Below are positions 1 to 31,302 of a stretch of DNA of 64,000 nucleotides, piece after piece. The notes under the pieces are model-generated. The model saw only the letters and a list, made by a program, of their open reading frames with translations. It was not told the origin of the DNA and did no database searches. Location of the stretch: the NCBI GenBank assembly GCA_902537215.1, contig CACBAM010000003.1:124001-188000 (forward strand), written 5' to 3'. Both the position numbers and the translations under genes were made by a program. Source of the stretch: an uncultured Alphaproteobacteria bacterium. GTDB taxonomy: Bacteria > Pseudomonadota > Alphaproteobacteria > Rhodobacterales > Rhodobacteraceae. The stretch's first letter is position 1; every line of letters starts with the position of its first letter.

Positions 1-227
1 GTACCAGCTATCAAGAGGGTGGATAATCCAAAGCGACGACCAAAAATGCCAGCCATAAAATTTGTAATAACACCCATAAATTCGTAGAGTAGAAATATAT
101 AAGCGAGAGTAAAAGGAGAATAGCCTTTATCATGAAAATGCATTAGCACTAACATTCGTAAAGCACCATCGGTCAGCATCAAAAACCAATAAATAATCGA
201 TACATTTATAAATGGATTGAATATCAA
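1..227 (-). CDS. arsJ: ArsJ-type MFS efflux permease, N-terminal part (cut by window edge)
   Basis: Reverse-strand translation from about position 227 to the window edge reads as the start of a major-facilitator protein, with the strings TDGALRMLVLMHFHDKGYSP and LLYEFMGVITNFMAG, which I recognise as the conserved N-terminus of ArsJ. ArsJ exports 1-arseno-3-phosphoglycerate made by a partner GAPDH. That partner lies immediately upstream (240-1244) on the same strand, the classical gapdh-arsJ order. No ATG precedes the conserved part; a TTG at 225-227 (or CTG at 228-230) is the likely start. It is in the same frame as the GAPDH stop codon, only four codons later. The rest of the gene lies outside the window, so its integrity cannot be judged. 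Confidence 0.82.
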   Translation of the reverse strand, partial: MIFNPFINVSIIYWFLMLTDGALRMLVLMHFHDKGYSPFTLAYIFLLYEFMGVITNFMAGIFGRRFGLSTLLIAG

Positions 228-239
228 CAGGAGGAAAGC

Positions 240-1244
240 CTAGTCTCGGATTAATTTAGATAAGATGTCAACCATTCTACAGGCGTATCCCCATTCATTA
301 TCATACCAGGCATATATCTTAAGCTGGGTTTTATTTACGACCATAGTTGAAAGAGAGTCGATAATTGCTGAGTGGGGATTATTAACATAATCAGATGACA
401 CCAAGGGTTTTTCTTCATAAGATAAGATATCTCTCAAATAGGTATTTGAAGCTTCGTTAAAAAGTTGATTAATCTTATCAACTTCTACATTCTGTTTCAT
501 CTCAAAAACACAATCAGTCAATGATGCGTTCAAGAGAGGAACTCTTACAGCATGACCATTCAGCCTTCCTTTAAGCTCTGGATAAATTAATGAAATTGCC
601 CTAGCTGAGCCCGTGGTCGTGGGGATTAATGAGTTAATTCCGGATCTCGATCGCCTTAAATTATTTTTTGGAGCATCAACAATAGTTTGAGAGTTTGTAA
701 TGTTATGGATAGTTGTAATTGACCCATGCTTTATTCCAATATTTTCTTCGAGAACTTTTACAATAGGCGCGAGGCAATTAGTGGTACAGCTTGCGGCTGT
801 AAATATTTTATAAGCACTAGTGTCTATGGATTGATGATTTATTCCATAAACAATATTCTGGACATTGGATGATTCTATAGGGGCAGAAATTAATACGTAT
901 GATGCCTTTCTTTCGAAGTATGGCTCAAGTAATTTTTCTGATTTATTCACGCCAGTGCAATCTACTACCAGAAACTTTTCAGATTTAGGAAAACTAATAC
1001 TCTCTATAGACCCCTCTGTCATCACAGCTATAGAATGATCTTTGTAATTAAGACAACCATTTTCAAAACAAAGGTCATCACCCCAAGTCCCATGAACGGT
1101 GTCATATCTTAAAAAATACTCTTGGTCAGAAGCAGACCCTGCTTTCTCATTCACCATTAAAATATTTTTATGGAGGTTCTCATCGCATAGTCTTCTAAAG
1201 ACAAGCTTCCCAATTCTTCCTAACCCGTTAATAATTATTTTCAT
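240..1244 (-). CDS. Glyceraldehyde-3-phosphate dehydrogenase, arsenate-detoxification partner of ArsJ
   Basis: 334 residues, full length for the GAPDH family. The Rossmann glycine motif NGLGRIG is at residues 6-12, the catalytic cysteine is Cys153 in ASCTTNC, and a likely catalytic histidine is His180. Next to arsJ, this class of GAPDH joins arsenate to glyceraldehyde 3-phosphate to give unstable 1-arseno-3-phosphoglycerate, which ArsJ exports. A housekeeping glycolytic role cannot be excluded from sequence alone, but the arsJ neighbour and the Pho-box-like array 33 bp upstream favour arsenate tolerance when arsenate enters through derepressed phosphate uptake. A GAGG ribosome site lies seven bases before the ATG. 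Confidence 0.9.
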   Translation of the reverse strand: MKIIINGLGRIGKLVFRRLCDENLHKNILMVNEKAGSASDQEYFLRYDTVHGTWGDDLCFENGCLNYKDHSIAVMTEGSIESISFPKSEKFLVVDCTGVNKSEKLLEPYFERKASYVLISAPIESSNVQNIVYGINHQSIDTSAYKIFTAASCTTNCLAPIVKVLEENIGIKHGSITTIHNITNSQTIVDAPKNNLRRSRSGINSLIPTTTGSARAISLIYPELKGRLNGHAVRVPLLNASLTDCVFEMKQNVEVDKINQLFNEASNTYLRDILSYEEKPLVSSDYVNNPHSAIIDSLSTMVVNKTQLKIYAWYDNEWGYACRMVDILSKLIRD

Positions 1245-1276
1245 AATAGACCTCGGATAGACGTTACAAAAAAATT

Positions 1277-1294
1277 ATGACAAAAATATGTAAG
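1277..1294 (-). promoter_or_regulatory. Pho-box-like repeat upstream of the GAPDH-arsJ unit
   Basis: On the reverse strand the sequence reads CTTACAT-N4-TTGTCAT, two 7-bp half sites with the 11-bp period of PhoB sites (consensus CTGTCAT-N4-CTGTCAT). It ends 33 bp before the GAPDH ATG, which leaves room for a -10 element and a short leader. The half sites match the consensus at about 5/7 and 6/7. The assignment is inferred from pattern. Confidence 0.55.
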
Positions 1295-1347
1295 AAAATA
1301 CAATTAATTGTCTATAGTTGAGGATAGAAAAATCACGGATTAAAAAA

Positions 1348-2772
1348 ATGGAAAAGTTAAAAAAATTTTTTATTAATGGGACGTGGGTAAACCCAAGATC
1401 AGACGAAACAATGGCTGTGATAAGCCCATCGGATTTAAGACAAATCGGGACTGTGTCACTAGGAAATGAACAGGATGTCAATGATGCAGTTCAGTCGGCG
1501 AAAAAAGCATTTACAAGCTTTTCCAAAACGAAAAAGAAAGAAAGAATAGATCTCTTGAAGGATCTCAAGAGAATAACAGAGAGAAGGTTCGAAGATTTAG
1601 CCCAGGCCATGCGCGAAGAGATGGGTGCACCTATATCAATGGCACGATCTGCCCAAGCGGATGCAGCTGTAGGGCACTTGGAATCATTTATTGGTGCGCT
1701 GGCAGAGCTTAAGGAAAGAACACTTTTGGATAGTGGGGATATTCTTTTAAAAGAACCGGTAGGGATTTGTGGACTGATAACACCTTGGAACTGGCCTGTA
1801 AATCAAATCGCACTGAAGGTTATACCAGCTTTAGCAACTGGCTGTACCTGTATCTTGAAACCGTCAGAGTACACACCCTTATCTGCGATGGTTTATACCG
1901 AAATCATTGAGGAGGCCGGCTACCCAGCCGGTGTTTTTAATTTGGTTAACGGTGTCGGAGATACGGTGGGAAGGGTAATGTCAAAGCATCCAGAAATAGA
2001 TATGATGTCTTTCACTGGATCGACAAGAGCCGGAATCATGGTAACCAAAGATTCTTCTGAGACCATTAAAAGAGTTACTTTGGAACTTGGTGGAAAATCA
2101 CCTAACATTGTATTTTCGGATGCAAATCTAGAAAGGGATATAAAATATTCGATCAATGAGTGCATGTTCAATACGGGTCAATCTTGTGATGCACCGACGA
2201 GGCTACTAGTTGAACACTCTTGTTACGAAGAGGTTTTAAAAATAGCAAAGAAGTCAGCAGAAGAAATTTTAATCGGAGATCCAACTAAAGAGGGAGATCA
2301 CATAGGGCCCTTATTTGATAAAATACAATTCGATCGAGTTCAAAATATGATTGATTTGGGAATAAAAGAAGGAGCCTCCGTCTTAACGGGAGGTTTAGGT
2401 AAGCCTCACGGTTTAGAAAAGGGTTGGTTTGTTAAACCAACAATTTTTTATAATGTTAGAAATACTATGAGGATCGCTAGAGAAGAAATTTTCGGACCAG
2501 TTTTAGTTATAATACCATTCAAGAATGAGCAGGAAGCGATATCTATAGCAAATGACTCGCCCTATGGCTTAGCGGCCTATGTGCAAACGTCTGACATTAA
2601 AAAAGCAGAGCGTGTTAGTTCACAATTGAGAGTCGGGGCAGTTCACATAAATGGAGGTGGATACAATTATGGAACACCTTTTGGTGGATACAAACAATCC
2701 GGCAATGGCAGAGAGGGTGGTTTAATGGGTTTGGAGGATTATTTGGAAACTAAATCGTTACATGGGCTTTGA
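1348..2772 (+). CDS. NAD(P)-dependent aldehyde dehydrogenase
   Basis: 474 residues from the ATG at 1348; an upstream TTG at 1318 is in frame but lacks a ribosome site and would add residues before the normal family start. ALDH signatures are present: oxyanion Asn148 in TPWNWP, NAD-binding SFTGSTRAG, general base Glu246 in LELGGK, and nucleophile Cys280 in NTGQSC. It oxidises an aldehyde to an acid in the cytoplasm. The substrate cannot be read from sequence. Its position beside phosphonate and arsenate genes allows phosphonoacetaldehyde dehydrogenase (PhnY-like) as a guess, but generic or betaine aldehyde activity is equally possible. The gene is divergent from GAPDH and its 3' end overlaps the convergent permease gene by 15 bp. 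Confidence 0.9.
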   Translation: MEKLKKFFINGTWVNPRSDETMAVISPSDLRQIGTVSLGNEQDVNDAVQSAKKAFTSFSKTKKKERIDLLKDLKRITERRFEDLAQAMREEMGAPISMARSAQADAAVGHLESFIGALAELKERTLLDSGDILLKEPVGICGLITPWNWPVNQIALKVIPALATGCTCILKPSEYTPLSAMVYTEIIEEAGYPAGVFNLVNGVGDTVGRVMSKHPEIDMMSFTGSTRAGIMVTKDSSETIKRVTLELGGKSPNIVFSDANLERDIKYSINECMFNTGQSCDAPTRLLVEHSCYEEVLKIAKKSAEEILIGDPTKEGDHIGPLFDKIQFDRVQNMIDLGIKEGASVLTGGLGKPHGLEKGWFVKPTIFYNVRNTMRIAREEIFGPVLVIIPFKNEQEAISIANDSPYGLAAYVQTSDIKKAERVSSQLRVGAVHINGGGYNYGTPFGGYKQSGNGREGGLMGLEDYLETKSLHGL

Positions 2773-3684
2773 TATGTATTTTGTCGACTTGCTAAATAGT
2801 ATCTCAATAAAGCCGGCTATAACAATTGCAAGTGCTCCAAGCCATTGAATTAAAGTCATTCTTTCCTCTGGAAGTAAAATACTAGCCGTAACAACAGCAA
2901 CTATGATCTCTGACATAAGGAGAATAGCTACGCGTCCAGGAAACAAAGTCTGTGAGACTTTAAAGACAACCATAAAGCTTGGCATAAATATAATTGTAGA
3001 CCATAGAAAAACATAAGGGAAAAAATCAATTACAGTCTTTTTTGGTATTTCAGTCTGGCCGACGAAAAAAAATACCAATGCTAATGCGCCTGCACTGGTG
3101 AATGCATAAACGAAGAACGTTAGAGGAAATATTTTTATTCTTGGCGAGCGCTTCAACAATCCCGATCCAATAGCAAAAAGAAGGCCTGATAAAAAACCGA
3201 AAAAGTCACCTATCTTCAATGTAAAATTTGAAGTATCTTTATTTGATAGAAGCAAAAAAATCCCGAACAAAGCAAAAATAATTGCAATTGTCCGTCTGAC
3301 GGTAAATCTCTCCGATAAAAAAATCGTGCCGAAAATAGTTCCCCAGATCGGGCTAAGATAAAACAAGAGGGTTGCCCTGACAACGGTAGTCTCTAAAATC
3401 GCGCCTGCGTAAAGCGTGAAAGCAAGTCCTATAGTAAGACCAGATAATAGAGTGGACCAATCTGTAAATTTAAATTGATTGATCTTGAAAAGTGCCATTG
3501 GGAATAGAACTAGAAGTGGGCAAGCATTTATAAAAAAGATACTCCAATAGCTATCCAATCCTGCCAATGACAGTTCCCTTATTGGTATCCAATAAAGACC
3601 CCATAAGCCTCCGCTAATTAAAAGCGCTAAGCTTAAAGATGTATCTGAGTATTTTGGCTCTACAGTGATTCTTTCAAGTATCAT
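2758..3684 (-). CDS. EamA/DMT-family inner-membrane transporter
   Basis: 308 residues with about ten hydrophobic segments arranged as two halves of five, the layout of drug/metabolite transporters (two EamA domains). The N-terminal half has the small-residue string LLISGGLWGLYWIPIRELS. The substrate is unknown; family members move amino acids, nucleosides or other small metabolites. It is divergent from the iron alcohol dehydrogenase (gap about 106 bp) and its 3' end overlaps the aldehyde dehydrogenase by 15 bp, so the two transcripts converge. Confidence 0.8.
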   Translation of the reverse strand: MILERITVEPKYSDTSLSLALLISGGLWGLYWIPIRELSLAGLDSYWSIFFINACPLLVLFPMALFKINQFKFTDWSTLLSGLTIGLAFTLYAGAILETTVVRATLLFYLSPIWGTIFGTIFLSERFTVRRTIAIIFALFGIFLLLSNKDTSNFTLKIGDFFGFLSGLLFAIGSGLLKRSPRIKIFPLTFFVYAFTSAGALALVFFFVGQTEIPKKTVIDFFPYVFLWSTIIFMPSFMVVFKVSQTLFPGRVAILLMSEIIVAVVTASILLPEERMTLIQWLGALAIVIAGFIEILFSKSTKYISKPM

Positions 3685-3790
3685 TAACAGCTTCTCAATG
3701 TTTTAGTGTTCCACAACCACTTAAAAGTTTTTTACAAACCTTTCCTAAAACAATCTATTCTGTAAAAAGAAAACAGTAAATTGAGAAAAA

Positions 3791-4966
3791 ATGTTTATAG
3801 AGGATGAAAAAATTTTAACACCACAGGATTGGGTATTCCCAATACCAATAGCTTATGGACCTGGACGCATTTGGGAGGTAGGTGATTATTGCACAAAATA
3901 TGGTATTTCAAATCCTTTAATTGTCACTGATAAAGGAAGCAAAAACCTATCATTTATAGATATTTTAAAAAAGGCTTTGAAAAAGAAAAATGTTTCTTTT
4001 GGTTTTTACAGCGGTATAGCGCCTAACCCAAATGATAAAGATTTAGAAATGGGGTGCGACCAGTTCTCAAAAGACAAACATGATGGGATAATAGCAATTG
4101 GTGGAGGCAGCGCATTGGATGGAGGTAAAGCCATTGGCTTGACTGTTAATAGTGGTAAAGATCTCTGGAGATTTGACTACGAGAAAAATCCTCCCAAAAT
4201 AGACAATAATAGTGTGTTCCCAAAGCTTATTACCATTCCGACAACAGCGGGTACTGGAGCGGAAACCGAAAGTACCGCGATGGTAACGCATTCAAAAAAA
4301 CTAATGAAGTTCTGTGTTTGGCATCCGATGTACAAGCCCTGCCAAACAATATTAGACCCAATGGTAACACTGGATCTCCCTTTTAATTTAACCGCATGGA
4401 CTGGATTGGATGCTCTTACGCATGCAATTGAAGCGTATTTGGTTCCTGACTTTAACCCTATCTATGATGCAATGGCATTGGAATCGTTACACCTCATATG
4501 GAAATATTTGCCAAGAGCATGTGATAATCTTAATGACTTGAACGCAAGATCGGGAATGCTTATAGGGTCATGTATGGCCGGTGTGTCATTTTTAAAGGGT
4601 CTGGGGTTGGTTCATGCAATATCTCACATGATTGGCGCGGAGTTTAACACTCATCACGGCTTGACCAATGCTATTATTTTGCCAACGGTCTTAGATTTTA
4701 ACTTGGTGAATATGGGTGAAAAGACAAATAGAATAACCAAATCACTTGGTTTAAAGGAAGATACCCAGCATCATTTAATTTCATGTATTAAACAATTATT
4801 AACACAATTAGAAATCCCGGAGTCACTCTCAGAAATTGGAGTCCCTGATAGCTGTGCCAAAAGGATTGCAAAAAAAGCTATGTTTGACACAGCTACGTCA
4901 ACAAATCCGGTTAAGGTGATCGTTACCGACATTGAAAAATTAATAAACGCGTCAATTATTAGTTAA
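3791..4966 (+). CDS. Iron-containing (group III) alcohol dehydrogenase
   Basis: 391 residues, usual length for the family. The NAD-binding GGGSALDGGKAIG string lies about residues 104-116. The metal-binding histidines are in the C-terminal half, within GLDALTHAIEAYLVP and HMIGAEFNTHHGLTNA. It reduces or oxidises an unidentified alcohol/aldehyde pair. With the nearby aldehyde dehydrogenase it could form an alcohol-aldehyde-acid route, and some family members act on phosphonoacetaldehyde, but this is inference. An imperfect inverted repeat CTGT-N9-ACAG at 3760-3776, just before the ATG, may be an operator. The phnC promoter array begins 19 bp after the stop, so phosphonate import is probably transcribed independently. 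Confidence 0.88.
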   Translation: MFIEDEKILTPQDWVFPIPIAYGPGRIWEVGDYCTKYGISNPLIVTDKGSKNLSFIDILKKALKKKNVSFGFYSGIAPNPNDKDLEMGCDQFSKDKHDGIIAIGGGSALDGGKAIGLTVNSGKDLWRFDYEKNPPKIDNNSVFPKLITIPTTAGTGAETESTAMVTHSKKLMKFCVWHPMYKPCQTILDPMVTLDLPFNLTAWTGLDALTHAIEAYLVPDFNPIYDAMALESLHLIWKYLPRACDNLNDLNARSGMLIGSCMAGVSFLKGLGLVHAISHMIGAEFNTHHGLTNAIILPTVLDFNLVNMGEKTNRITKSLGLKEDTQHHLISCIKQLLTQLEIPESLSEIGVPDSCAKRIAKKAMFDTATSTNPVKVIVTDIEKLINASIIS

Positions 4967-4984: not shown

Positions 4985-5024
4985 CTGTTATTTTTCTTTC
5001 ACAAATGTGAAATCATTCTGTCAC
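4985..5024 (+). promoter_or_regulatory. Four-repeat Pho-box array of the phnCDE1 operon
   Basis: The half sites CTGTTAT, CTTTCAC, GTGAAAT and CTGTCAC start at 4985, 4996, 5007 and 5018, an exact 11-bp period. The first, second and fourth fit the PhoB half-site consensus well. A -10-like TATACA at 5035-5040 begins ten bp after the array, as in classical PhoB promoters, placing transcription start near 5047. This spacing decides the phnC start: the in-frame ATG at 5007 lies inside the array and would not be transcribed. Confidence 0.75.
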
Positions 5025-5060: not shown

Positions 5061-5867
5061 ATGCATCTACAAGTATCAAAACTTAAAAAAGAATTTGGTT
5101 CGACAGTCGCAATAGATAGTGTTTCTTTTGAATCTACTAAAAATGAGTTCATAGGTATCATCGGTCGTTCTGGCGCAGGAAAGTCAACGCTCCTCCGGGT
5201 TTTAAATAGACTGACTACTGAAACTGAAGGGAAAGTGTTTGCCGGGAGCATAAATATTCTGGAGCTCAAGGGTTCAGAGAAAAGGCAATGGCAATCTCAA
5301 TGCGCAATGATTTTCCAGCAATTTAATTTAGTGCCTCGCTTGGACGTGATCACAAACGTCATATTGGGTCGCTTGTTCTACCAGTCTACCTTGCGGTCAA
5401 CACTCAGATTTTTTACAAAAGAAGAGCGTTCGGATGCCCTTGATTTGATGAATCGTTTCGGTGTCGCTCCTACAGCTTTGCAAAGAGCAGAAACTTTATC
5501 TGGAGGTCAGCAACAGAGGGTAGCGATCTGTAGAGCGATGATGCAAAATCCAAAAATAATTTTAGCAGATGAGCCAATTGCATCCTTGGATCCATTAAAC
5601 GCACGGCTAGTGATGGAAGCACTGCAATCAATTAATTCGAACGAAAAAATCAAAGTGATATGTAATTTGCACACTTTAGATACAGCAAGAACATATTGCG
5701 ACAGGATTATTGGAATGCGGTCTGGAGAGATAGTATTTGACGGCAAGCCGAGTGAATTGAGCGATGCGAAAGCGAGAGAAATTTACGGTGTTGAGACTGA
5801 CGAGGCATTCGAAGCGTCAATAACCTCAACGTCCTTAAATAAACCCCACATAGGGATTGCAAGTTAA
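5061..5867 (+). CDS. phnC: Phosphonate ABC importer ATPase PhnC
   Basis: 268 residues from the ATG at 5061, chosen because the upstream ATG at 5007 lies inside the Pho-box array and because PhnC proteins begin just before the beta strand of the nucleotide-binding fold. Walker A GRSGAGKST is about residues 35-43, signature LSGGQQQR at 146-153, and Walker B ILADEP at 167-172. It powers import of phosphonates, and possibly phosphate esters or phosphite, through PhnE1/PhnE2 with binding protein PhnD. First gene of a PhoB-type operon, 22 bp before phnD. Confidence 0.93.
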   Translation: MHLQVSKLKKEFGSTVAIDSVSFESTKNEFIGIIGRSGAGKSTLLRVLNRLTTETEGKVFAGSINILELKGSEKRQWQSQCAMIFQQFNLVPRLDVITNVILGRLFYQSTLRSTLRFFTKEERSDALDLMNRFGVAPTALQRAETLSGGQQQRVAICRAMMQNPKIILADEPIASLDPLNARLVMEALQSINSNEKIKVICNLHTLDTARTYCDRIIGMRSGEIVFDGKPSELSDAKAREIYGVETDEAFEASITSTSLNKPHIGIAS

Positions 5868-5889
5868 TTTTTAAAATGAGGAGTTCAAG

Positions 5890-6843
5890 ATGTTAAAGAA
5901 GTTTATTTTAGTATCTACTTTGTTGCTATTTTTTGGAGCAACCTATGCTGAGCCTAATCCAAACTATAAGGGTCCAACATACGATCTAAGTAAAATACAA
6001 CCAGAGTTTAGAATTGGTTTTTTAGGGGATGAAGCCGCACAAGATATAATTGCAAGGAACCAGTGCTTGCCACCGTACTTTGAAGCTGCGTATGGAGTTC
6101 CAGCAAAAATGTTTACGTTTACTGACTACGCCGGAACGATGGAGTCAATGCTAGGTGGTAATATAGATTATGCATGGTTTGGTGCATCAGGCTATGCTGG
6201 AATGTACTTAGCAGATCCTGACGCAGCCGTCCCAGTGTTGACAAGAATGCAACCAACTGGAGATACAGGCTATTATTCAATAATGGTAACCTTAAAGGAT
6301 TCAGGGATAAACAATCTTGATGATATGAAAGGTAAAGTGCTAGGCTTCGCAGATCCGAATTCAACTTCAGGATATTTAATCCCATCAGTGGAATTACCTG
6401 ACATTTACAATATAAATATGGATGAGTATTTTAAAGATACTCCATTCATGGGAGGGCACGAAAATGGAGTGCTCGGCGTACTGAACGGTGACGTGGATGC
6501 CGCAGTAACTTGGGTGTCTGGCGTCGGTGAATGGGACGAGGGCTACTCTTCAGGTAACTTAAGAAGAATGGTTGAAAAAGGTCTTCTTAATATGGACGAT
6601 ATAAAGCAAATATGGTCATCAAAGCTTATCCCGAACGGTCCAATGGTTATGCGAAAAGCTATACCAAAAGAAGCAAGAGACGTAATGGTTGGCATGAAGC
6701 AGTGGATTCACGAAAACGACCCGAAGTGTAGCGAAAATATTGCAAACGGTATAGTAAGAGCGTGGGTTCCTGTTGATCACTCCTTTTATGAGGTGGTTGT
6801 GAAGGCCAGAAAGGCTAAGCTCGAAGCTAAGAAGAAAAACTAA
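5890..6843 (+). CDS. phnD: Periplasmic phosphonate-binding protein PhnD
   Basis: 317 residues with a Sec signal peptide (basic MLKK, hydrophobic core, cleavage likely after about residue 20 at TYA-E). The body matches PhnD-type binding proteins, with typical strings such as FGASGYAGMYL and FADPNSTSGYLIPSVEL where the phosphonate head group is bound. It differs clearly from the second PhnD at 27333, so the two importers probably have different ligands. A strong hairpin follows the stop codon and may raise the level of this mRNA segment over the permease genes. GAGGAG lies just upstream of the ATG. Confidence 0.93.
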   Translation: MLKKFILVSTLLLFFGATYAEPNPNYKGPTYDLSKIQPEFRIGFLGDEAAQDIIARNQCLPPYFEAAYGVPAKMFTFTDYAGTMESMLGGNIDYAWFGASGYAGMYLADPDAAVPVLTRMQPTGDTGYYSIMVTLKDSGINNLDDMKGKVLGFADPNSTSGYLIPSVELPDIYNINMDEYFKDTPFMGGHENGVLGVLNGDVDAAVTWVSGVGEWDEGYSSGNLRRMVEKGLLNMDDIKQIWSSKLIPNGPMVMRKAIPKEARDVMVGMKQWIHENDPKCSENIANGIVRAWVPVDHSFYEVVVKARKAKLEAKKKN

Positions 6844-6866
6844 GTACTGTATAGTAATGATTTTTT

Positions 6867-6893
6867 AATGTGCCTCTAAAAAAGGGGCACATT
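6867..6893 (+). terminator. Intercistronic hairpin after phnD
   Basis: A perfect-register inverted repeat: AATGTGCCTC pairs with GGGGCACATT (one G-U pair) around a 7-nt A-rich loop. No long T run follows, so it is more likely an mRNA-stabilising or partial-attenuation structure between phnD and phnE1 than a full terminator. Binding-protein genes of ABC operons often carry such a structure. Confidence 0.7.
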
Positions 6894-6918
6894 ACTCCTT
6901 TTAAAAAAGAATTATTTT

Positions 6919-7773
6919 ATGTCACAAAACGCAATAACAATCGAAAGTCTTGAAGAAAATCTAAAAGTTTTAGCAAGACAAAGAGCGATTTATTCGGTCC
7001 TCTTTATCGGTGCTATAATTTTTATAGTTGTGAGTGGTGTTGGTGTTGCCAATCAATATAATGCTGGAAGTTTTACAAGAGGAGTCGAGAATTTTTTTGA
7101 CTACCCGGCGGATCTTTTCAGTGATGCCTTTGAGGCTGGTTGGGGATGGTTTGGTATAGTCTTAAGTTTTATCCCTGCTTTATTCGAGACTTTTTCCGCT
7201 GCAGTGTTTTCTACCGTAGTTGGTGCTTCGATCGCATTAATCCTATGTCCCTTGGCCACCATTAACCTTTCGCCAAATCAGGTTACCGTACAGATCGTAA
7301 GAAGGACCTTTGATATTCTCAGATCTTTTCCAGAGTTAGTTTTTGCGTTAATATTATTATATCTCATGGGAAAATCGATCGTTCCCGCCATTATAGCGGT
7401 AACTCTTCATACAATTGGAGCGATGGGTAAACTTTTTTCGGAAGCTATAGAAAATATTGATATGAAACCAGTAGATGGTCTCAAATCAGTGGGAGCTCGC
7501 TGGTACCAGATTATTTGCTTTGCTGTTTATCCTCAGGTATTACCGTTGGTTCTCTCCTACTCTCTTTTAAGATTGGAGATAAATGTCAGGGCCTCTACTA
7601 TTTTAGGTTTTGTAGGAGCTGGGGGAATAGGAGCATATTTAACAGCATCACTTCAATGGAGATATGGAGATGAAGTATTAGCAATTATGTTTCTACTAGT
7701 GGCAACAATAACTGCTTTAGATTATTTTTCATCATATGTTCGACATAAGCTTATCGGGAAGATTTCAGCATGA
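6919..7773 (+). CDS. phnE: Phosphonate ABC importer permease PhnE1
   Basis: 284 residues with one N-terminal transmembrane helix (about residues 25-43) and a five- to six-helix binding-protein-dependent permease domain. The EAA-like coupling loop is visible as EAIENIDMKPVDGLKSVGA. It forms the membrane channel with PhnE2. The stop overlaps the PhnE2 start by four bases (ATGA), showing translational coupling. The start follows the post-phnD hairpin by 25 bp. Confidence 0.92.
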   Translation: MSQNAITIESLEENLKVLARQRAIYSVLFIGAIIFIVVSGVGVANQYNAGSFTRGVENFFDYPADLFSDAFEAGWGWFGIVLSFIPALFETFSAAVFSTVVGASIALILCPLATINLSPNQVTVQIVRRTFDILRSFPELVFALILLYLMGKSIVPAIIAVTLHTIGAMGKLFSEAIENIDMKPVDGLKSVGARWYQIICFAVYPQVLPLVLSYSLLRLEINVRASTILGFVGAGGIGAYLTASLQWRYGDEVLAIMFLLVATITALDYFSSYVRHKLIGKISA

Positions 7774-9152
7774 GCATAGCGGTATATGATAGAGAGGTTT
7801 CTTTTCAAGAGATCTATCAAAGCGTTGAAAAAAAAGCACACTACCAGAAGTTAATTACCCTGGTGTCCATAGGAGCGATTCTATTATATTTTGTTTTTTC
7901 GATTATTCAGTTTGATTTAGGCAGTATATCGAGAAAATGGAGTCCAGAGAGAGCATCGCGATTATTTTTGGATACATACGCGCACAAAGACCATGTGGTA
8001 ATGAACTGGAAGGACACTTCGAAGATATCTGTTAATTTTGAAGGAGATTATAGATATCAGTACCCTAGTTTCCCTGAGTGGTTAGAACGCATAGGAGATG
8101 GGAAAGACATCGCTATCCTTACTTTTAACAGTGGTAGCAAGGCAATCTTTAGAGACGATAAAATAATTTTCGAACAAAGTAAGAGTGAAGATAGAAAATT
8201 TATTTTTGGAATAGGGAACAACGGAAAGCCTTACGCAGAAGCTTATGATAACGATGGAAACGAAAAAGATCTTCCTAACTGGATAAGAGTTACTGAGTCA
8301 AAGGTAGAAGTAAGACCATCACTTTACGAGAGGATTCAAATATATAAGAGAAAGGTGGAAGTACATAGATATGAATTCGGATGGAAGTATTTTTGGTTCG
8401 ATTTTTTCAGCCCACTGAAAGATTATTCGCTTCCAGAGGCCTTATCGCTCATTTTTAGTAATGAAAGAATAGAACCTGACAAAACTAATTTTGAATTAGT
8501 TTTCTCTGAAATCAGTGATAACGAACAATGGATGCACGGTACAGTCCTGTTCTCGATCTTGGAAACATTGCTTATGGCTGTTTTGGGCACGCTTTTGGCG
8601 TCTTTGCTCGGTTTGCCGCTCGCATTTCTGGCAGCATATAATATAACACCCTTCAAATTTGTTCGATTCTCGCTTCGTAGACTTTTTGATATGCTACGAG
8701 GAATAGACATGATCATTTGGTGCTTAATATTTGTAAGATCATTTGGCCCCGGTCTTTTCACAGGAATATTTGCGATAGCTTTCACCGATACAGGAACGTT
8801 GGGAAAGTTGATGTCGGAAGCAATAGAAAACGCTGATAATAAACAGCAGGAGGGTGTCAAATCTACTGGAGCATCAACTATACTCCAGCATAGATTTGGT
8901 ATTATTCCCCAGATAATGCCTGTTTTTATATCTCAGTCACTGTACTATCTGGAATCCAACACAAGAGGAGCGGTTATATTAGGTGCTATGGGCGCTGGAG
9001 GTATAGGCCTTCAACTTCTTGGGGCTATAAGAACGGGTAATGATTTTGAAAACGTTGGTTATATGGCAGTGTTAATTGTGCTACTGGTAACAGTCATGGA
9101 TCAAATGTCAGCATTTTTGAGACGTTTTTTAATTGGAATAGAAAAAAATTAA
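7770..9152 (+). CDS. phnE: Phosphonate ABC importer permease PhnE2 with long extracytoplasmic insert
   Basis: 460 residues, much longer than PhnE1. After a first membrane helix (about residues 27-47) comes a soluble, charged stretch of roughly 190 residues with no membrane segments, then a permease domain of about 200 residues with the coupling loop EAIENADNKQQEGVKSTGA. Paired short and long PhnE proteins occur in alphaproteobacterial phn operons. The insert is probably periplasmic and might meet PhnD or the outer periplasm; its role is unknown. It overlaps PhnE1 by four bases and is followed 12 bp later by a secreted unknown protein. Confidence 0.9.
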   Translation: MSIAVYDREVSFQEIYQSVEKKAHYQKLITLVSIGAILLYFVFSIIQFDLGSISRKWSPERASRLFLDTYAHKDHVVMNWKDTSKISVNFEGDYRYQYPSFPEWLERIGDGKDIAILTFNSGSKAIFRDDKIIFEQSKSEDRKFIFGIGNNGKPYAEAYDNDGNEKDLPNWIRVTESKVEVRPSLYERIQIYKRKVEVHRYEFGWKYFWFDFFSPLKDYSLPEALSLIFSNERIEPDKTNFELVFSEISDNEQWMHGTVLFSILETLLMAVLGTLLASLLGLPLAFLAAYNITPFKFVRFSLRRLFDMLRGIDMIIWCLIFVRSFGPGLFTGIFAIAFTDTGTLGKLMSEAIENADNKQQEGVKSTGASTILQHRFGIIPQIMPVFISQSLYYLESNTRGAVILGAMGAGGIGLQLLGAIRTGNDFENVGYMAVLIVLLVTVMDQMSAFLRRFLIGIEKN

Positions 9153-9164: not shown

Positions 9165-9587
9165 ATGAAGGTTTTACTGACATTTTTTGTGTTATTTTGT
9201 AGTGTCACTCTCGGTTTCGGTCAGGAACAGAAGGCTGGCAATGAGGCCAGTAGAAATACAGAGGAAACGTTTCAAAAGATAATAGACCAATGTGATAATA
9301 CAGAGATTTTAGTTCTTAGAGCAAAAATTAGACTTGAAATCAGTAGAGCTACTGAGTCCGCTGGGAAAGACGCAATGGGAATGTTAGAAAGTGCATACAA
9401 AGTTTGTGGTGAAGGACAAGTTGAAAAAGCTGTTGAAATGGCAAAAAATGCTTATGAAATTGCTCGACAAGGAGTTACGGATAAATTTGGTCAGGTGGGA
9501 GATAATGCGGTGACTGAAGTTCAAAAAAACAGTGAGGATAAAAAAGTTAATAAGGAAGAACAAAAACCTTGGTGGAAGTTTTGGTGA
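9165..9587 (+). CDS. Small secreted protein of the phosphonate operon, unknown function
   Basis: 140 residues with a clear Sec signal peptide (MKVLLTFFVLFCSVTLGFG, cleavage near residue 19-20). The mature part is polar and helical with two cysteines (in DQCDN and YKVCGEG) that could form a disulfide, and it ends in an aromatic/basic tail KPWWKFW. I recognise no family. An AAAAGGAGG ribosome site precedes it and it lies 12 bp after phnE2, so it is surely co-transcribed with the importer. A periplasmic accessory role in uptake or envelope remodelling is a guess from context. Confidence 0.75.
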   Translation: MKVLLTFFVLFCSVTLGFGQEQKAGNEASRNTEETFQKIIDQCDNTEILVLRAKIRLEISRATESAGKDAMGMLESAYKVCGEGQVEKAVEMAKNAYEIARQGVTDKFGQVGDNAVTEVQKNSEDKKVNKEEQKPWWKFW

Positions 9588-9609
9588 ATTAGAATTTCAA
9601 GACCAAAGC

Positions 9610-11403: not shown

Positions 11404-11432
11404 ATGACAAGAATGTTACAAAAAGTTTACAA
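11404..11432 (-). promoter_or_regulatory. Triple Pho-box array upstream of the first phnM
   Basis: On the reverse strand the half sites read TTGTAAA-N4-TTGTAAC-N4-TTGTCAT, three 7-mers with an 11-bp period, the last matching the PhoB consensus at 6/7. It lies 23 bp before the phnM ATG. A -10-like TGTAAA about eight bp after the array would start transcription within a few bases of the start codon. Confidence 0.65.
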
Positions 11433-14830: not shown

Positions 14831-14831
14831 T

Positions 14832-16746: not shown

Positions 16747-16749
16747 ACA

Positions 16750-17520: not shown

Positions 17521-17522
17521 AA

Positions 17523-18197: not shown

Positions 18198-18209
18198 GAG
18201 AAATCTATT

Positions 18210-19423: not shown

Positions 19424-19499
19424 AAAAATGTCCTAATAACAGAGTACAAAAAATTTGGAATATTTATATGAAACTTTTAAGTCAAGAGTATGAATTTAT

Positions 19500-22327: not shown

Positions 22328-22725
22328 TTTTGAGTAAAATTCATAATTTTGCCATTACCTATAGCTACCGCTTGGTCTAGCCTTTCAACGCATGGGACGC
22401 ATGGGATGCTCATGTAGCATGTTCTTGGAGTGAAGCAGCAGATGGTAAGTTACTTTAATGTATCAAAAAGAAAACGGCCCAGTGGGAAGGGAAATACACG
22501 CGACTGTTTGGGTATTATCTATCTTATTAATGTTAAGATTTATTACATTCAGATAAAAATTTTTTAAACCATCACTTGAGTTAATAATTTTCATTCAATC
22601 TAAATTAATTGAAAAAATATAGATAGAATCTGAGAACTTTCTTACGTACAAGTCATTAATTTTTCATAAATTCATCAATAATTTGTTGCATATTTTTTTC
22701 ATTTTATAAGGCAAAGGAGTCGGCT
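22328..22725 (+). other. Non-coding interval containing direct repeat copy A
   Basis: No gene seen. The interval starts with short tandem CGCATGGGA-type repeats near 22388-22407 and then carries the first of two divergent copies of a roughly 240-bp sequence (22457-22691). Confidence 0.5.
22457..22691 (+). repeat. Divergent direct repeat, copy A
   Basis: About 235 bp matching 23716-23968 in the same orientation. Shared blocks include AATGTATCAAAAAGAAAA, CGGCCCAGT, GAGTTAATAATTTT, and GTCATTAATTTTTCATAAAT. Copy A lacks the 17-18 bp left arm and loop of a hairpin present in copy B. The ends show no target-site duplication or transposase. Confidence 0.75.
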
Positions 22726-23157: not shown

Positions 23158-23579
23158 TCACCTTGAAAAAAGCAGATACAAGTCGGGATTGTCTATCAAC
23201 AGCATGGCAACTGCAGTACCACATATCGCGGATCCAATCATTAGTGCTCTGTCGCTCCATTGCATGCCGACATATATCCATCCGATGGCACTAAAGAAAT
23301 AACACAATTGCCCCAAAATATACATTTTTCCTGATGTAAGAAATACTCCTAATACACACAATAGCATGGCTCCCCATTTAACATACCAATCTCTTGTACC
23401 AGTAGGCGTAAGAGGTTTAATGTCATCGTATTCGCCTTGTAATTCTTCTAGCTCTTGAGCAAGCCTCTTTTTTCAGACGCTAACTCCATTGCTAGTCTTC
23501 CTGCTTTAGTAGTTATATTATGTAATTTTCCGTCTTCACCTAATTCAGTGATGGTATCAGCGTCTTTTTCCGTCGACAT
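23158..23579 (-). pseudogene. Frameshifted two-domain small membrane protein
   Basis: The first frame starts at ATG 23579 with a good AAGGAAA site (MSTEKDADTITELGEDGKLH) and stops early after GLLKS. The -1 frame carries on directly with AQELEELQGEYDDIKPLTPT, then DWYVKWGAM and two or three membrane helices, ending in LLIDNPDLYLLFSR. One extra A in the A6 run (T tract at about 23468-23473) would restore a single protein of about 140 residues: a coiled-coil-like N-terminus plus a membrane hairpin. Either a recent inactivating indel or a sequence error. Function unknown. Confidence 0.6.
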
Positions 23580-23715
23580 TTTATTTCCTTTTGAGGATTT
23601 AATTTCAATCGCGCCAAAATTTAGCAATACTAATAATTTAGTCAAATAAAAATTAAAAATAGTCTTACAACACGCTTCTAAAGTCCAATTTTATATATTG
23701 ATTAGCTGTTACATC

Positions 23716-23968
23716 AATGTATCAAAAAGAAAAGGGCCGTCTGCTTACAACGGCCCAGTTGGGAGGGAAATACATGCGTGTATTTACAGATTGTCTAACT
23801 TTTAAATGTTAAAGATTGATGACAATTTGATGAAAATTTTAAATCATCATTTGAGTTAATAATTTTATTATTCAATCTAAATTTGTTGAAAAAGTACAAT
23901 CAAAATTTGAGAACTTACTCACGTGGATGTCATTAATTTTTCATAAATTCATCAATTATTTGTTACAT
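23716..23968 (+). repeat. Divergent direct repeat, copy B
   Basis: About 253 bp, homologous to 22457-22691. Contains a 7-bp hairpin at 23734-23756 (GGGCCGT / ACGGCCC, loop 9 nt) that copy A lacks; read on the minus strand it is followed by a T-rich run and could terminate transcription. The repeat reaches into the nominal 5' end of the acyltransferase frame, showing that the true gene start lies after it. Confidence 0.75.
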
Positions 23969-23995
23969 CTTTTAACTATCAACAGGATAGGATTA

Positions 23996-24844
23996 TTGAT
24001 TTTGCAAAATAGCAGTCAGACACACCCTGTGTTTTCATTCGCCGACGGAGAAATGGGTGTAATTCCCAACAAAATAATCCGCTACTTAGAAAAATTAACG
24101 GGTCAACCGCGTATAGAAAAACTGTATTTTGACTATGTAAATGACAATCTAAATCCAGAATATTTTTGGTCAGATGCACTTGACCGACTGCGTATCGAAC
24201 TAGATGTTCGTCGAGAGGTTTCAAATGGAATAATGGCATCCATACCGTCTACTGGACGGGTCGTGACCATCGCTAATCATCCATATGGAGTCATAGATGG
24301 ACTTGCCTTGTGTTCAATTATGGCCGAGGTGCGGCATGACTATAAAATCATTACCCACAGGGTATTGAGACAGGCACCAGCGGTAATGGATAAAATTCTG
24401 CCAATAGATTTTGCAGAGACTAAAATTGCGCTTAAAACAAATATGGAGTCTCGTCGCAGAGCGTTGGAGCATCTCAGAAATGGCGGAGCACTTATCATCT
24501 TCCCAGCAGGTGCCATATCATTGGCGCCAAATATATTTGGGACTGCGAGTGATGCGCCGTGGAAAACATTTGTTGCGAAATTAGCATTGCAGCCTGACAC
24601 AACTACTATTCCGTTCTTCTTCGAGGGACGTAATTCAGCGTTATTTCAAATTGCAAGAAGAGTAAGCTTTACTCTTGGTTATTCTCTGATGTTTAGAGAA
24701 ATTTGTAGAAGAATTGGGACAAATTTAACGGTCACGATGCGCCCCCCCATACACAGTTCCGAACTAGCTGAAATGGAAAACCGGAATGTGGTCACAGAAT
24801 ATCTCAGGCGCCAAACCTATAATTGGTCTTATAAGGCTTTTTAG
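23996..24844 (+). CDS. Lysophospholipid acyltransferase-like protein
   Basis: About 282 residues from a TTG at 23996 with AGGA upstream; a TTG at 24002 and ATG at 24053 are alternatives. The open frame to 23927 is rejected because it runs into a repeated non-coding block. Acyltransferase motif I is NHPYGVIDG (His-x5-Asp), motif III is FPAGAIS. Related to haemolysin-type PlsC acyltransferases. Convergent with, and overlapping by 41 bp, the glycosyltransferase-PlcP unit, suggesting a role in membrane lipid renovation under phosphate stress (inference). Confidence 0.8.
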   Translation: MILQNSSQTHPVFSFADGEMGVIPNKIIRYLEKLTGQPRIEKLYFDYVNDNLNPEYFWSDALDRLRIELDVRREVSNGIMASIPSTGRVVTIANHPYGVIDGLALCSIMAEVRHDYKIITHRVLRQAPAVMDKILPIDFAETKIALKTNMESRRRALEHLRNGGALIIFPAGAISLAPNIFGTASDAPWKTFVAKLALQPDTTTIPFFFEGRNSALFQIARRVSFTLGYSLMFREICRRIGTNLTVTMRPPIHSSELAEMENRNVVTEYLRRQTYNWSYKAF

Positions 24845-26829: not shown

Positions 26830-26858
26830 ATTTCAGATTAGTAACATTTTTGTGAATA
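26830..26858 (-). promoter_or_regulatory. Weak Pho-box-like array upstream of plcP
   Basis: On the reverse strand: TATTCAC-N4-ATGTTAC-N4-CTGAAAT, an 11-bp period with half sites of four to five matches each to CTGTCAT. Weaker than the other arrays, but in the right place and orientation for plcP-agt. Confidence 0.35.
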
Positions 26859-27254: not shown

Positions 27255-27294
27255 TTGTCAAAAATTTATTAGGTTTCTGTCACAAAAGCGTTAA
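27255..27294 (+). promoter_or_regulatory. Pho-box array of the second phosphonate importer
   Basis: TTGTCAA at 27255, a weak TTATTAG at 27266, CTGTCAC at 27277 and a weak GCGTTAA at 27288 share an 11-bp period; the first and third are near-consensus PhoB half sites. A -10-like TTTAAT follows at 27302-27307, before the phnD2 ribosome site AAGGAG. Confidence 0.6.
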
Positions 27295-29033: not shown

Positions 29034-29879
29034 ATGAACCAGAAAATGAAAACCCCAAAAAGATTTGAACAAATCTCATCCTTTCAATATATGTCCATTA
29101 TTGTTTTCTTTTTGATTATGGTGTGGGCTCTTGATGGCTCCGGTTTTTCCTTTAGCAAATTATTTGGAAGCAGTGAGTACATTGGTAGGTTTCTCAGTGA
29201 AGCCTTTCCTCCTATTAGCGAGCATAGATTAAGCTGGAATGATTTTAACAGGTATATTTTGCTCTTAATTGAGACGGCTCAAATGGCAATTTTTGGTACG
29301 TTTTTAGGAATAATTGTAGGTTTTTTATTTGCGCTGATGGCCTCAAGAGGCTTATTCGGAAATAGCATCCCGGCAAGAATGCTTCAAGTAGTTGCAAAGT
29401 TTCTAATAACATTTATGCGAACAATACCTGATTTAGTATGGGCAATAATATTTGTAATGGTTGTAGGGCTTGGAGCTTTTGCAGGCACATTAACGATTGC
29501 AATAGACACAATAGGATTTGTAGGTAGATTTTTTGCTGAAGAGATGGAGGATGTTGAAAGGAGTGCAGCTGAAGGTATAGAGAGTAGTGGAGCGTCAAAG
29601 CTAGACAGTACTTTTTCAGCAATTATTCCTGCCGCCATGCCTGGCTTTATAACGACATCGCTTTTCGCCTTAGAAAAGTCTGTAAGAGGATCAGTGGTGT
29701 TAGGTCTAGTTGGTGCTGGTGGAATCGGAATGGAATTAAACAGTCTTTTTAATTGGATGGCTTACGATAGAGCTGTTGTAGTAATAGGCTTAATGTTTGT
29801 TTTAATATTGTTCGTAGAACAAATTAGCAGTTATGCTCGCTTAAAGATACTTGATGGATCTGTTAAGAGTGGGAAATAA
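29034..29879 (+). CDS. phnE: Phosphonate ABC importer permease, second system (PhnE)
   Basis: 281 residues, about six membrane helices, with coupling loop EEMEDVERSAAEGIESSGA and the terminal signature LGLVGAGGIGMEL typical of PhnE. Unlike importer 1 there is only one permease gene, so a homodimer is expected. Downstream by 26 bp comes a methyltransferase gene that is probably in the same operon. Confidence 0.92.
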   Translation: MNQKMKTPKRFEQISSFQYMSIIVFFLIMVWALDGSGFSFSKLFGSSEYIGRFLSEAFPPISEHRLSWNDFNRYILLLIETAQMAIFGTFLGIIVGFLFALMASRGLFGNSIPARMLQVVAKFLITFMRTIPDLVWAIIFVMVVGLGAFAGTLTIAIDTIGFVGRFFAEEMEDVERSAAEGIESSGASKLDSTFSAIIPAAMPGFITTSLFALEKSVRGSVVLGLVGAGGIGMELNSLFNWMAYDRAVVVIGLMFVLILFVEQISSYARLKILDGSVKSGK

Positions 29880-29905
29880 CGCATTTGGAAAAGAAAGGTA
29901 GAAAA

Positions 29906-30571
29906 ATGTCAAAAACAGATACGGCGTATCAGTATTGGAATACTGAATGGGATAATAAAATTGTTACCGAGAAATGGACTGTAGCTGAGCCAGAGGTGCT
30001 CGCAACTTTCGAAAATATCGGGCCATCTAAAAAGGTTTTAGATCTCGGTGCCGGGGTAGGCCGGCATAGCCTTCCTTTTGCGGAAAACGGTTGTGAGGTT
30101 ACTGCTTTTGATGCAGCAGAAAGTGGACTTGCTTCTATTGAGCAGTTAGGAAAAGAAAAAAGTGTTTCTATAAAAACAGTACTTGGAAAAATGGATCAAT
30201 TACCCTTCGCTAATGAGTACTTCGATCACGTGTTATCGTGGAATGTGATTTACCATGGTAATCACAATATTTTAATTGATACTGTAAATGAGATAAAAAG
30301 AGTACTTAAACCTGGAGGCACGTTTCATGGAACCATGCTCCCTAAGAAAAGAATTGACCTTTTAAAAAGTGAATTCGATTGCAAAGAGATTTCCACAAAC
30401 ACTTGGATAGTCAATTCAGACTCTGAAAGCGATAAGGCTCATCCTCATTATTATTGTACTGCCAACGAATTAACGTCGATATTTAAGGATTTTGAGTTTA
30501 ATAGTCTTACTATGCAGGAACATGATAAACCAAACTCATGGCATTGGCATCTAATGATCGAAAAGCTGTAG
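29906..30571 (+). CDS. Class I SAM-dependent methyltransferase
   Basis: 221 residues from the ATG at 29906 (AAAGG upstream); a TTG at 29885 is in frame but less likely. SAM motif I is VLDLGAGVGRHSLPFAENG, then TAFDAAESGL, and LKPGGTFHGTML. It resembles TehB/thiopurine-type small-molecule methyltransferases. The cysteine set of arsenite methyltransferase ArsM is not seen. Linked to importer 2, so it may modify an imported or released metabolite; the substrate is unknown. Confidence 0.82.
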   Translation: MSKTDTAYQYWNTEWDNKIVTEKWTVAEPEVLATFENIGPSKKVLDLGAGVGRHSLPFAENGCEVTAFDAAESGLASIEQLGKEKSVSIKTVLGKMDQLPFANEYFDHVLSWNVIYHGNHNILIDTVNEIKRVLKPGGTFHGTMLPKKRIDLLKSEFDCKEISTNTWIVNSDSESDKAHPHYYCTANELTSIFKDFEFNSLTMQEHDKPNSWHWHLMIEKL

Positions 30572-30645
30572 CTTAAATGAGTAAATTAGGGCGCCTTTTT
30601 ATAGTATACAAACATAAGAGATCCGCCTAATTCAACCGCATAACA

Positions 30646-31302
30646 TCATTTCCTACCATTTTCAATTAGGTTACAAACAGCAAGTGCAGAAACTCCACCT
30701 AATATTTGAAATAATATAAAAAAGGGAAGATCAGAGAAATTAATGCCTGAAAATGTATCCGTCAAGGTCCTAGCGAATGTTACTGCTGGGTTAGCAAAAC
30801 TGGTAGAAGAGGTGAACCAATAAGCACCTGTTATATATAAGCCTACTAATGCGGGTACCTTTCTGGGACTATATCTTGATCCTAGCAATATAGTAAAAAT
30901 TAGGCCAAAAGTCGCAACGAACTCGGCAATATAAATTGGTGAGCCCGTTCTTATCTTTGACGAAAATTGTATGATACTTACATCAAACATAAAATGAGCA
31001 ACCCAGGTTCCAAAAACTGATCCCGCTATTTGGGAAAGTAAGTATGTAGAAAGCTCAACATTATTAAGATTCCCTCTTAAACGCATAACTAGTGATACAG
31101 CTGGATTGAAGTGAGCGCCCGAAACTGGAGCTAGAATTGTGATCATAACAAATAAAATCGCCCCTGTAGCTATGGTATTTCCTAATAAAGCCAAAGACTC
31201 AATTCCTGCTGAAAGCCTTTCACTCATTATGCCTGAGCCGACTATCGTCCCTAATAAAAAAGAGGTACCTATAAACTCTGCTATGTTTTTTTTATATGTC
31301 AT
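30646..31302 (-). CDS. Aquaporin/glycerol facilitator (MIP) family channel
   Basis: 218 residues, six membrane helices with two NPA boxes: GAHFNPAVSLVMR and TSFANPAVTFAR. Short MIP proteins of this type include AqpS, an arsenite channel of rhizobial ars operons, as well as water and glycerol channels. Given arsJ at the far end of the island an arsenite role is possible, but the distance (30 kb) makes it only a suggestion. Convergent with the methyltransferase. Confidence 0.88.
   Translation of the reverse strand: MTYKKNIAEFIGTSFLLGTIVGSGIMSERLSAGIESLALLGNTIATGAILFVMITILAPVSGAHFNPAVSLVMRLRGNLNNVELSTYLLSQIAGSVFGTWVAHFMFDVSIIQFSSKIRTGSPIYIAEFVATFGLIFTILLGSRYSPRKVPALVGLYITGAYWFTSSTSFANPAVTFARTLTDTFSGINFSDLPFFILFQILGGVSALAVCNLIENGRK

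Follow-up and report, generated by a model that had tools for sequence, protein, structure and literature searches.

Predicted PhoB control of a phosphorus-stress locus that includes arsenate export in an uncultured marine alphaproteobacterial genus

Introduction

A 64,000-nucleotide stretch of the genome of an uncultured member of the Rhodobacteraceae (assembly GCA_902537215.1, contig C3, positions 124001-188000; hereafter the window) opens with genes for arsenate export, phosphonate import, carbon-phosphorus (C-P) lyase and lipid renovation, several of them preceded by 7-bp direct repeats at a period of 11 bp. Are these repeats PHO boxes, the sites of the phosphate regulator PhoB, which join the genes into one phosphorus-stress locus, and what does their presence at an arsenate pump say about the control of that pump? 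The original prediction had listed seven such sites and proposed that the units they head respond together to phosphate limitation.

The phosphorus-stress locus is one unit of about 40 kb, running from phoB, 8 kb to the left of the window, to the MIP channel gene at 31302. From comparative sequence analysis we consider it very probable that the arrays are the PhoB switch of this locus, arsenate export included. The window lies in a 197-kb contig of a 2.1-Mb genome (44 contigs, GC content 37%), which was compared with 21 others of its genus, giving a set of 22 (G000-G021, its own genome being G000).

Results and discussion

PHO arrays and the units that they head

On the minus strand to the left of the window, outside the view of the original prediction, lie phoB, phoU, pstB, pstA, pstC, pstS and phoR, followed by arsJ, which crosses into the window; the regulator is thus encoded in the same locus. 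In profile searches PhoB (312 bits, cut-off 296.2), PhoU, PstB, PstA, PstC, ArsJ and GAPDH all passed their curated cut-offs.

Sites were scored with a half-site matrix built from E. coli PHO boxes, which is independent of the window, and compared with 2000 dinucleotide shuffles per site. The P values below refer to the two-unit/three-unit statistics and are uncorrected for the use of several statistics.

1266-1294, minus strand: PHO array heading gapdh-arsJ; best pair 1277-1294, 13.8 bits, P 0.0015/0.0035; -10 element TAACGT 10 bp on
4985-5024, plus strand: four-unit PHO array heading phnC1D1E1E1; 15.2 bits, P 0.005/0.0005; -10 element TATACA 10 bp on
11404-11432, minus strand: three-unit PHO array heading phnM1; 15.9 bits, P 0.0005/0.0005; -10 element TAAACC
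12935-12963, plus strand: three-unit PHO array at the Sel1 gene; 16.9 bits, P 0.0005/0.0005; -10 element TATAAA at 12974-12979
13737-13754, plus strand: PHO box heading the C-P lyase operon (phnG); 19.6 bits, the best of the window, P 0.0005/0.0005; -10 element TAAATA
19417-19434, plus strand: PHO pair ahead of phnM2 that overlaps the initial codons of the DUF1045 gene; 11.3 bits; -10 element TACAAA
23808-23836, minus strand: three-unit PHO array pointing left, antisense to the acyltransferase; 15.3 bits; -10 element TAGACA
23916-23966, plus strand: PHO array heading the acyltransferase; 12.6 bits, P 0.007/0.005; -10 element TATCAA if the unit 23960-23966 is the last
26830-26858, minus strand: weak PHO-like array at plcP; 7.8 bits, P 0.0285/0.0015
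27255-27283, plus strand: PHO-like array heading phnD2C2E2; 7.9 bits, P 0.0165/0.001

Matrix and shuffles bore out the 7-mers at an 11-bp period in all seven stretches originally named, each with a P of 0.0005 to 0.0015 on its better statistic. By matrix score the three best sites of the window were those of phnG, Sel1 and phnM1, in that order; those of phnC1 and gapdh were recovered too. The assignment of arrays to arsJ-GAPDH, phnCDE1, phnM1, Sel1 and phnG therefore stands; it is weaker for plcP-agt, where no -10 element stands 10 bp on, and for phnD2. Both of these arrays are weak as adjacent pairs, the two good units at phnD2 being 22 bp apart. Four arrays had been overlooked, at phnM2, the acyltransferase, the antisense position 23808-23836 and pstS. 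The last, to the left of the window, has three units on the coding strand (P 0.0005; 0.017 as a pair), and a reading on the opposite strand (L005 17528-17545, P 0.12) was dropped in its favour. For phnM2 the P of 0.003 comes from a stretch that was widened after the site had been seen, since the strict gap (19424-19499) excludes the pair.

Similar arrays are rare at promoters elsewhere. The background comprised the promoter-facing intergenic stretches in 0.52 Mb of the 2.1-Mb genome, window and flanks included. At a threshold of at least 11 bits, 6 of 21 island promoters carried an array as against 2 of 203 elsewhere in the sampled sequence (Fisher 8e-6); at 13 bits or more the figures were 4/21 and 0/203. 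Thus no equal density was found upstream of other genes. The period is specific as well: five island promoters reach at least 12.5 bits at period 11, compared with none or one at the nine other periods from 7 to 16, and the highest count across periods outside the island was four, at period 15.

No convincing array was located by matrix and shuffles on the own strand of aldh, eamA, Fe-ADH, chrA, DUF1045, mpe, mip, orf283, phoR, phoB or the plcP-like gene beside phoB. A common response to phosphate limitation is predicted for the arsenate-export, phosphonate-import and C-P lyase units, which carry arrays, mostly with a -10 element at the strong ones, in a locus that holds phoB, phoR and pst; not all genes need respond with them, because the first seven just named are among those that lack a convincing array. 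It is a serious possibility, though one we lean against, that only the core (pst, gapdh-arsJ, phnCDEE, phnM1 and C-P lyase) is controlled by PhoB, and that plcP-agt, phnD2C2E2 and the unboxed genes are under other control. Arrays are weak or absent at plcP, phnD2, aldh, eamA, Fe-ADH, chrA and mip, and the stretches fetched from G005, G007, G009 and G013 did not yield agt-plcP. On the other hand, the three-unit statistic backs both plcP (P 0.0015) and phnD2 (P 0.001), and Pho boxes before genes of the plcP cluster are described in the available part of PMC4796936.

Two side observations concern the arrays near the acyltransferase. Downstream of the left-pointing array lie only two short open reading frames (23448-23645 and 23158-23367), one of them weakly DUF6552-like, which are possibly a single interrupted gene for a small membrane protein. 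In addition, the promoter regions of orf117 (22626-22725) and the acyltransferase (23880-23980) are near copies of one another, array included; only the acyltransferase copy was found in G005, G007, G009 and G013.

A -10 element at fixed spacing

In PhoB-dependent promoters the box takes the place of a -35 element. A hexamer beginning with TA was found exactly 10 bp after the last half-site in 7 of 9 island arrays and in none of the 10 arrays of like score elsewhere in the sampled genome (Fisher two-sided, 0.0007). The acyltransferase array is not counted here: its last unit was picked by eye, and the rule, which stops at 23944, misses the -10 element. Among genus relatives, with L158 and L164 left out, 7 of 13 arrays have the TA hexamer at +10, other offsets giving 0 to 3. 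The signal extends to distant phnG promoters, 16 of which (out of 71) reach 13 bits, with TA at +10 in five of these and at other offsets in 0-2.

The arrays also bear on gene starts. For phnC1, Sel1 and the acyltransferase the start codon listed falls inside or just after the array, which suggests that it is too early. For phnC1 the ATG at 5061 is likelier than the GTG at 5007, which sits within the array. The true start of Sel1 is probably later than the listed ATG (12968), because the predicted -10 element (12974-12979) is downstream of it. The listed ATG of the acyltransferase (23927) falls inside the array.

Conservation and interchangeable cargo in the genus

Ten genus sequences have diverged leaders but share the phnG box except for one spacer base, and the left-pointing array at 23808-23836 reaches 15.3 bits in eight of nine genus sequences. 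The gapdh promoter is more informative: G008 and G018, with an ArsJ only 54-66% identical to that of the window's genome, retain its box in other letters, together with a -10 element at the same spacing. All 13 genus gapdh promoters examined possess a PHO box; the nine genomes outside this count are G021 (gapdh cut at a contig end), G002 (ending inside arsJ), G014 and six others. In the search of the genus genomes arsJ was not found in G009, G010, G011, G012, G015 and G019. In G014 (L163) gapdh-arsJ is missing between aldh and phoR with the phoR-pst-phoUB order intact, a natural absence of the pump. The arsJ gene of G017 (C1:89107-90319) has in-frame stops, as in the G018 draft, through decay or assembly error.

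The locus behaves as a flexible island: the pst operon occupies one position with the same flanks (phoB-pst-phoR plus aldh-eamA-FeADH) and varying cargo. The edges are common to G008, G014 and G018, one running from phoB to Fe-ADH and the other comprising mpe, hisphos, mbl and dppD; between them lie chrA, a gene of about 280 amino acids and another phnC-like and phnE-like block. C-P lyase was not found between these edges in the fetched stretches. The gene of about 280 amino acids encodes an EamA transporter and the first transporter gene a phosphonate-binding protein (G008 and G018 scanned); arrays stand at the EamA-type gene in all three genomes and at the phnD-type gene in G018. The aldh and Fe-ADH genes flank eamA in the window (1318-4966), an arrangement kept in these three genomes.

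Linkage of phosphonate and arsenate genes was followed by seeking phnG in 61 genomes and arsJ in 121. Within the genus, phnG is present in 11 of 22 genomes, most of them incomplete. Both genes occur in ten, on the same contig in seven (G000, G003-G007, G013) and on different contigs of fragmented drafts in G016, G017 and G020. Five family genomes outside the genus (G022, G023, G026, G029, G032) also have both, in all five on different contigs. Among 76 distant named phn loci (L012-L087) arsJ was present in one, a count that says little since the flanks were 10 kb and the distance from arsJ to phnJ is greater here. The phnC1 query used on relatives and distant loci started one base out of frame, at 5062, and its matches therefore mark position only.

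Control of the arsenate pump

The pump and the gene divergent from it are as follows.

1-227, extending left to about C3:123001, minus strand: start of arsJ, 1-arseno-3-phosphoglycerate (organoarsenical) exporter; NF033734 409.1 bits, cut-off 400 (C3:123001-124212); start codon read by eye
240-1244, minus strand: ArsJ-associated GAPDH; NF033735 470.8 bits, cut-off 450
1318-2772, plus strand: aldehyde dehydrogenase (aldh) without a PHO array; PF00171; shuffle P 0.15

ArsJ and its dedicated GAPDH are adjacent and both above cut-off, as in an ArsJ-GAPDH efflux gene pair. In the var operon of Vibrio cholerae (arsR-varG-varH-arsJ), which is arsenate-inducible and repressed by ArsR, GAPDH and ArsJ likewise serve arsenate resistance, according to the available part of PMC9601151. 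ArsR control as described there has no counterpart in the window, where no ArsR adjoins gapdh, the upstream gene is the divergent aldh, and PHO boxes are present instead.

Outside the genus, 40 GAPDH matches above the ArsJ-GAPDH cut-off were obtained from 38 genomes, 34 of the same family and four of other families of the class. Close upstream of gapdh, in the same direction, 34 of these 40 loci have a gene resembling an ArsR-ArsC fusion, and a PHO pair of 11 bits was found in none of the 34. A Pfam scan of the fusion at seven loci gave the low-molecular-weight phosphatase in all seven and HTH_20 in six, the seventh having only an IclR-type helix-turn-helix. The other six gapdh loci divide into L213 (17.7 bits, with a -10 element), L216 (13.1 bits, without one), L188 (10.6 bits, with one), and L169, L190 and L223, which have neither PHO pair nor -10 element. 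L188 came from a genome (G078) picked for its small size and high AT content, and its promoter was known beforehand; L170 (G029), whose contig ends inside gapdh, was left out.

The searches made for arsenic-sensing parts in this genus found none. ArsR (PF01022) was matched in none of 12 genus genomes searched and in all 34 family genomes searched (34 of the 35 with an arsJ match, G067 being left out), ArsR of the HTH_20 type lying outside this search. The ArsR-ArsC fusion was found in none of the 22 genus genomes, the fusion query matching the phosphatase half only, in nine. The window's own genome yielded neither ArsC (PF03960) nor Acr3, ArsB not being searched for, and its one low-molecular-weight phosphatase is a stand-alone gene. 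Genome reduction may account for part of this and tells against a handover, the family genomes with ArsR being mostly twice as large; the small G078 has a single weak PF01022 match.

Because L213 (G077) nests inside the ArsR-controlled clade of the GAPDH tree (38 rows, support 100/98), the predicted regulatory change in G077 is recent and separate from that of this genus. The tree is midpoint-rooted only and does not settle the order of controls in the genus itself. L213 is the only PHO-boxed lineage that clearly nests in it; L188, L216 and L190, which have long branches, are not included in this count. G077 has a PHO-boxed gapdh-arsJ (L181) beside a Rep3-type replication initiator, which suggests that the pair is on a plasmid.

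Most simply read, control of arsenate export would have moved from ArsR to PhoB in the G077 lineage, and also in this genus provided that ArsR control came first. On balance, and with some reserve, we favour the view that arsenate export passed from arsenic sensing (ArsR with an ArsC-type reductase) to PhoB in this streamlined genus, and separately in G077, with export occurring whenever high-affinity phosphate uptake opens and not upon arsenic. It is unlikely that the pump has kept arsenic control through an unrecognised regulator, with PhoB as a second input. ArsR of the HTH_20 type would escape PF01022, six of the seven fusions scanned match HTH_20, and the window's genome was searched for neither HTH_20 nor ArsB; against this, the fusion was found in none of the 22 genus genomes and the gene before gapdh is the divergent aldehyde dehydrogenase. 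PHO control of arsJ, the arrangement predicted here, was not met among the matches listed from the open-access literature.

Proposed mechanism

When flux through PstSCAB falls, PhoR would phosphorylate PhoB, whose dimers would bind the half-sites spaced at 11 bp, in place of a -35 element, and recruit RNA polymerase to the -10 element 10 bp downstream. This would switch on gapdh-arsJ, phnCDEE, phnM1, the Sel1 gene, the C-P lyase operon, phnM2 and the acyltransferase, and probably also phnDCE2, pstS and plcP-agt. Short gaps separate the collinear genes gapdh, arsJ and phoR, so phoR might be raised by PhoB as well. Phosphate and phosphonate importers, C-P lyase and lipid-saving genes would thus rise together. 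The arsenate exporter would be induced with the importers because Pst also admits arsenate; GAPDH would make 1-arseno-3-phosphoglycerate for export by ArsJ, a route established for the family, as cited in the available part of PMC12607644.

Several points weigh against PhoB as the switch of the whole locus. The matrix is taken from E. coli and not from this organism. The 10-bp spacing was noticed by eye on the window before it was tested by rule; the -10 element at that spacing is missing at pstS, phnD2, plcP and orf117; and of the seven cases in relatives two (G001) are near copies of those in the window and two (G014, G018) are homologous, leaving about four further independent promoters. 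Apart from those described above, genus intergenic regions are often near-identical and largely uninformative, and gapdh and arsJ of G018 contain an in-frame stop each (L166). PhoR has phoR_proteo as its best family (288.8 bits, cut-off 334.2) and PstS the right best family (150.7 bits, cut-off 206.6), both below cut-off, and the window's genome is 92% complete. The strict pattern TGTMAY-N5-TGTMAY gave five matches in the whole genome (three in the window) compared with four for the reversed control; not significant alone, it was rejected as too blunt for a sole test. Finally, sites of like score occur within genes, at 62382 (14.9 bits) and in pstB of L005 (15.9 bits); both are presumably fortuitous. 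The strict-pattern matches off the island are at C25:1939, inside a called gene, and at C19:23128, which coincides with the start of one called gene and immediately precedes another.

Regulators of the OmpR family typically bind direct repeats, and the genome has three PF00486 response-regulator matches, so that a different member or members of this family, not PhoB, might be served by the arrays. We regard this as very unlikely, since the half-sites match the PHO consensus CTGTCAT, the arrays are concentrated near the phoB, pst and phn genes, and of the three matches phoB is the one that lies in this locus. That the arrays are chance repeats of AT-rich DNA, among genes clustered for other reasons, is highly improbable: the low GC content, the ten arrays of at least 11 bits outside the island in the sampled sequence, the intragenic sites and the strict-pattern counts would fit it, but the promoter enrichment, period specificity, shuffle P values, -10 spacing (7/9 versus 0/10) and persistence of the box at diverged gapdh promoters do not. 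PhoB control of one phosphorus-stress locus is the reading that we retain.

Gene content of the locus

The remaining features of the locus are listed below; transporter substrates and operon borders are those predicted from family and context.

2758-3684, minus strand: EamA transporter without a PHO array; PF00892; P 0.14
3791-4966, plus strand: iron-containing alcohol dehydrogenase (Fe-ADH) without a significant PHO array; PF00465/PF25137; P 0.07
5061-9152, plus strand: phnC1, phnD1, phnE1a and phnE1b, putative phosphonate importer; TIGR02315 and TIGR03431 above cut-off; PF00528 in both permeases
9532-10227, plus strand: phosphonate-associated hexapeptide transferase; TIGR03308 279 bits, cut-off 201.65
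10224-11381, minus strand: phnM1; NF011987 372.6 bits, cut-off 253
11486-12706, plus strand: ChrA-type transporter, divergent from phnM1, own strand without an array; TIGR00937 198.1 bits, cut-off 171.7; P 0.11
12968-13735, plus strand: Sel1-repeat protein; PF08238, five stretches
13824-18734, plus strand: phnG, H, I, J, K, L and N (C-P lyase); TIGR03293, TIGR03292, TIGR02323 and TIGR02324 above cut-off
18731-19423, minus strand: DUF1045 phosphonate-operon protein; PF06299; TIGR03223 below cut-off
19500-20666, plus strand: phnM2; TIGR02318 394.2 bits, cut-off 390.55
20944-21717, plus strand: metallophosphoesterase mpe (SpdA-like) without an array; PF00149; NF050112 below cut-off
23927-24844, plus strand: acyltransferase related to the acyl domain of OlsF/GlsA; NF052615 126.5 bits, below cut-off; PF19576
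24804-25916, minus strand: agt, GT4 glycosyltransferase (named by context); PF00534/PF13439
25913-26773, minus strand: plcP-type metallophosphoesterase (named by context with agt); PF00149
27333-29879, plus strand: phnD2, phnC2 and phnE2, putative importer; TIGR02315 and TIGR01097 above cut-off; PhnD2 matches below cut-off, PF12974
29885-30571, plus strand: methyltransferase; PF13649
30646-31302, minus strand: MIP channel (mip, aquaporin family) without a PHO array; PF00230; P 0.14

The C-P lyase set phnGHIJKL with phnM and phnN is present, G, H, K, L and M2 being above cut-off and PhnN slightly under it (153.2 bits, cut-off 156). PhnI and PhnJ gave no NCBIfam match at 1e-5, and both match in all 76 distant named phn loci, to which PhnJ is 73-80% identical. 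The nearest PhnJ relatives make Rhodobacteraceae the probable family. A second plcP-agt-like pair beside phoB (L005:9825-11613), 63% and 49% identical to the window pair and without a PHO array, is likewise found in G001, G002, G008, G011, G014, G018 and G021.

Comparison with known systems

Islands of this kind are already known (PMC10734472, PMC3834237, PMC4796936), and the new point is arsenate export. The completeness of the set in one contiguous locus had been put forward as novel: the full set is not shown in the available parts of PMC10734472 and PMC3834237, although pst-phoBR-phn and arsenic-phosphate islands are in print there. The comparisons in this section draw on the parts of the cited papers available to us.

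HIMB59 has flexible islands (fGIp, fGIphn) in which pst, phoU and phoBR hold one genomic position with variable cargo, and gMED of the Pelagibacterales has pst, PhoR-PhoB and phn in one island (PMC10734472). These resemble the present locus in C-P lyase with phnDCE and phnCDEE, a methyltransferase, a glycerol facilitator, a phosphohistidine phosphatase and LpxH- and RfaG-like genes, and in having variable cargo between shared flanks, as in this genus. They belong to a different genus. The present locus includes ArsJ-GAPDH, chrA and PHO arrays, and the main text of that paper is without the terms 'arsen', 'chromate', 'plcP' and 'Pho box'. Arsenic islands of 5-71 kb (PMC3834237) also place arsenic resistance beside pst, pho and phn genes. 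They centre, however, on the arsenite oxidase aioBA and ars operons, their phn genes being the transport genes phnC, phnD and phnE, and GAPDH is unmentioned in the part available. Marine plcP-agt clusters (PMC4796936) have plcP followed by agt, with Pho boxes in the cluster; the word 'phosphonate' is absent from the available text, in which arsJ was not looked for, while here the plcP box is weak and a second such pair lies beside phoB. In picocyanobacteria, a chromate transporter and an arsenate efflux pump are among the genes enriched in low-phosphate waters (PMC10119275), although the pump named is ArsB, not ArsJ, and the phylum is another. A ChrA-type transporter recurs in the phosphorus loci studied here, as it does in those organisms.

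Conclusions

This uncultured marine alphaproteobacterial genus keeps a broad phosphorus-stress programme, together with its regulator, in a single locus whose cargo is interchangeable. The locus offers a testable case of regulatory capture, in which export of arsenate, a phosphate mimic, has seemingly been handed to the phosphate sensor. If this is true, cells in phosphate-poor oceans would export arsenate according to how scarce phosphate is and not according to the dose of arsenic.

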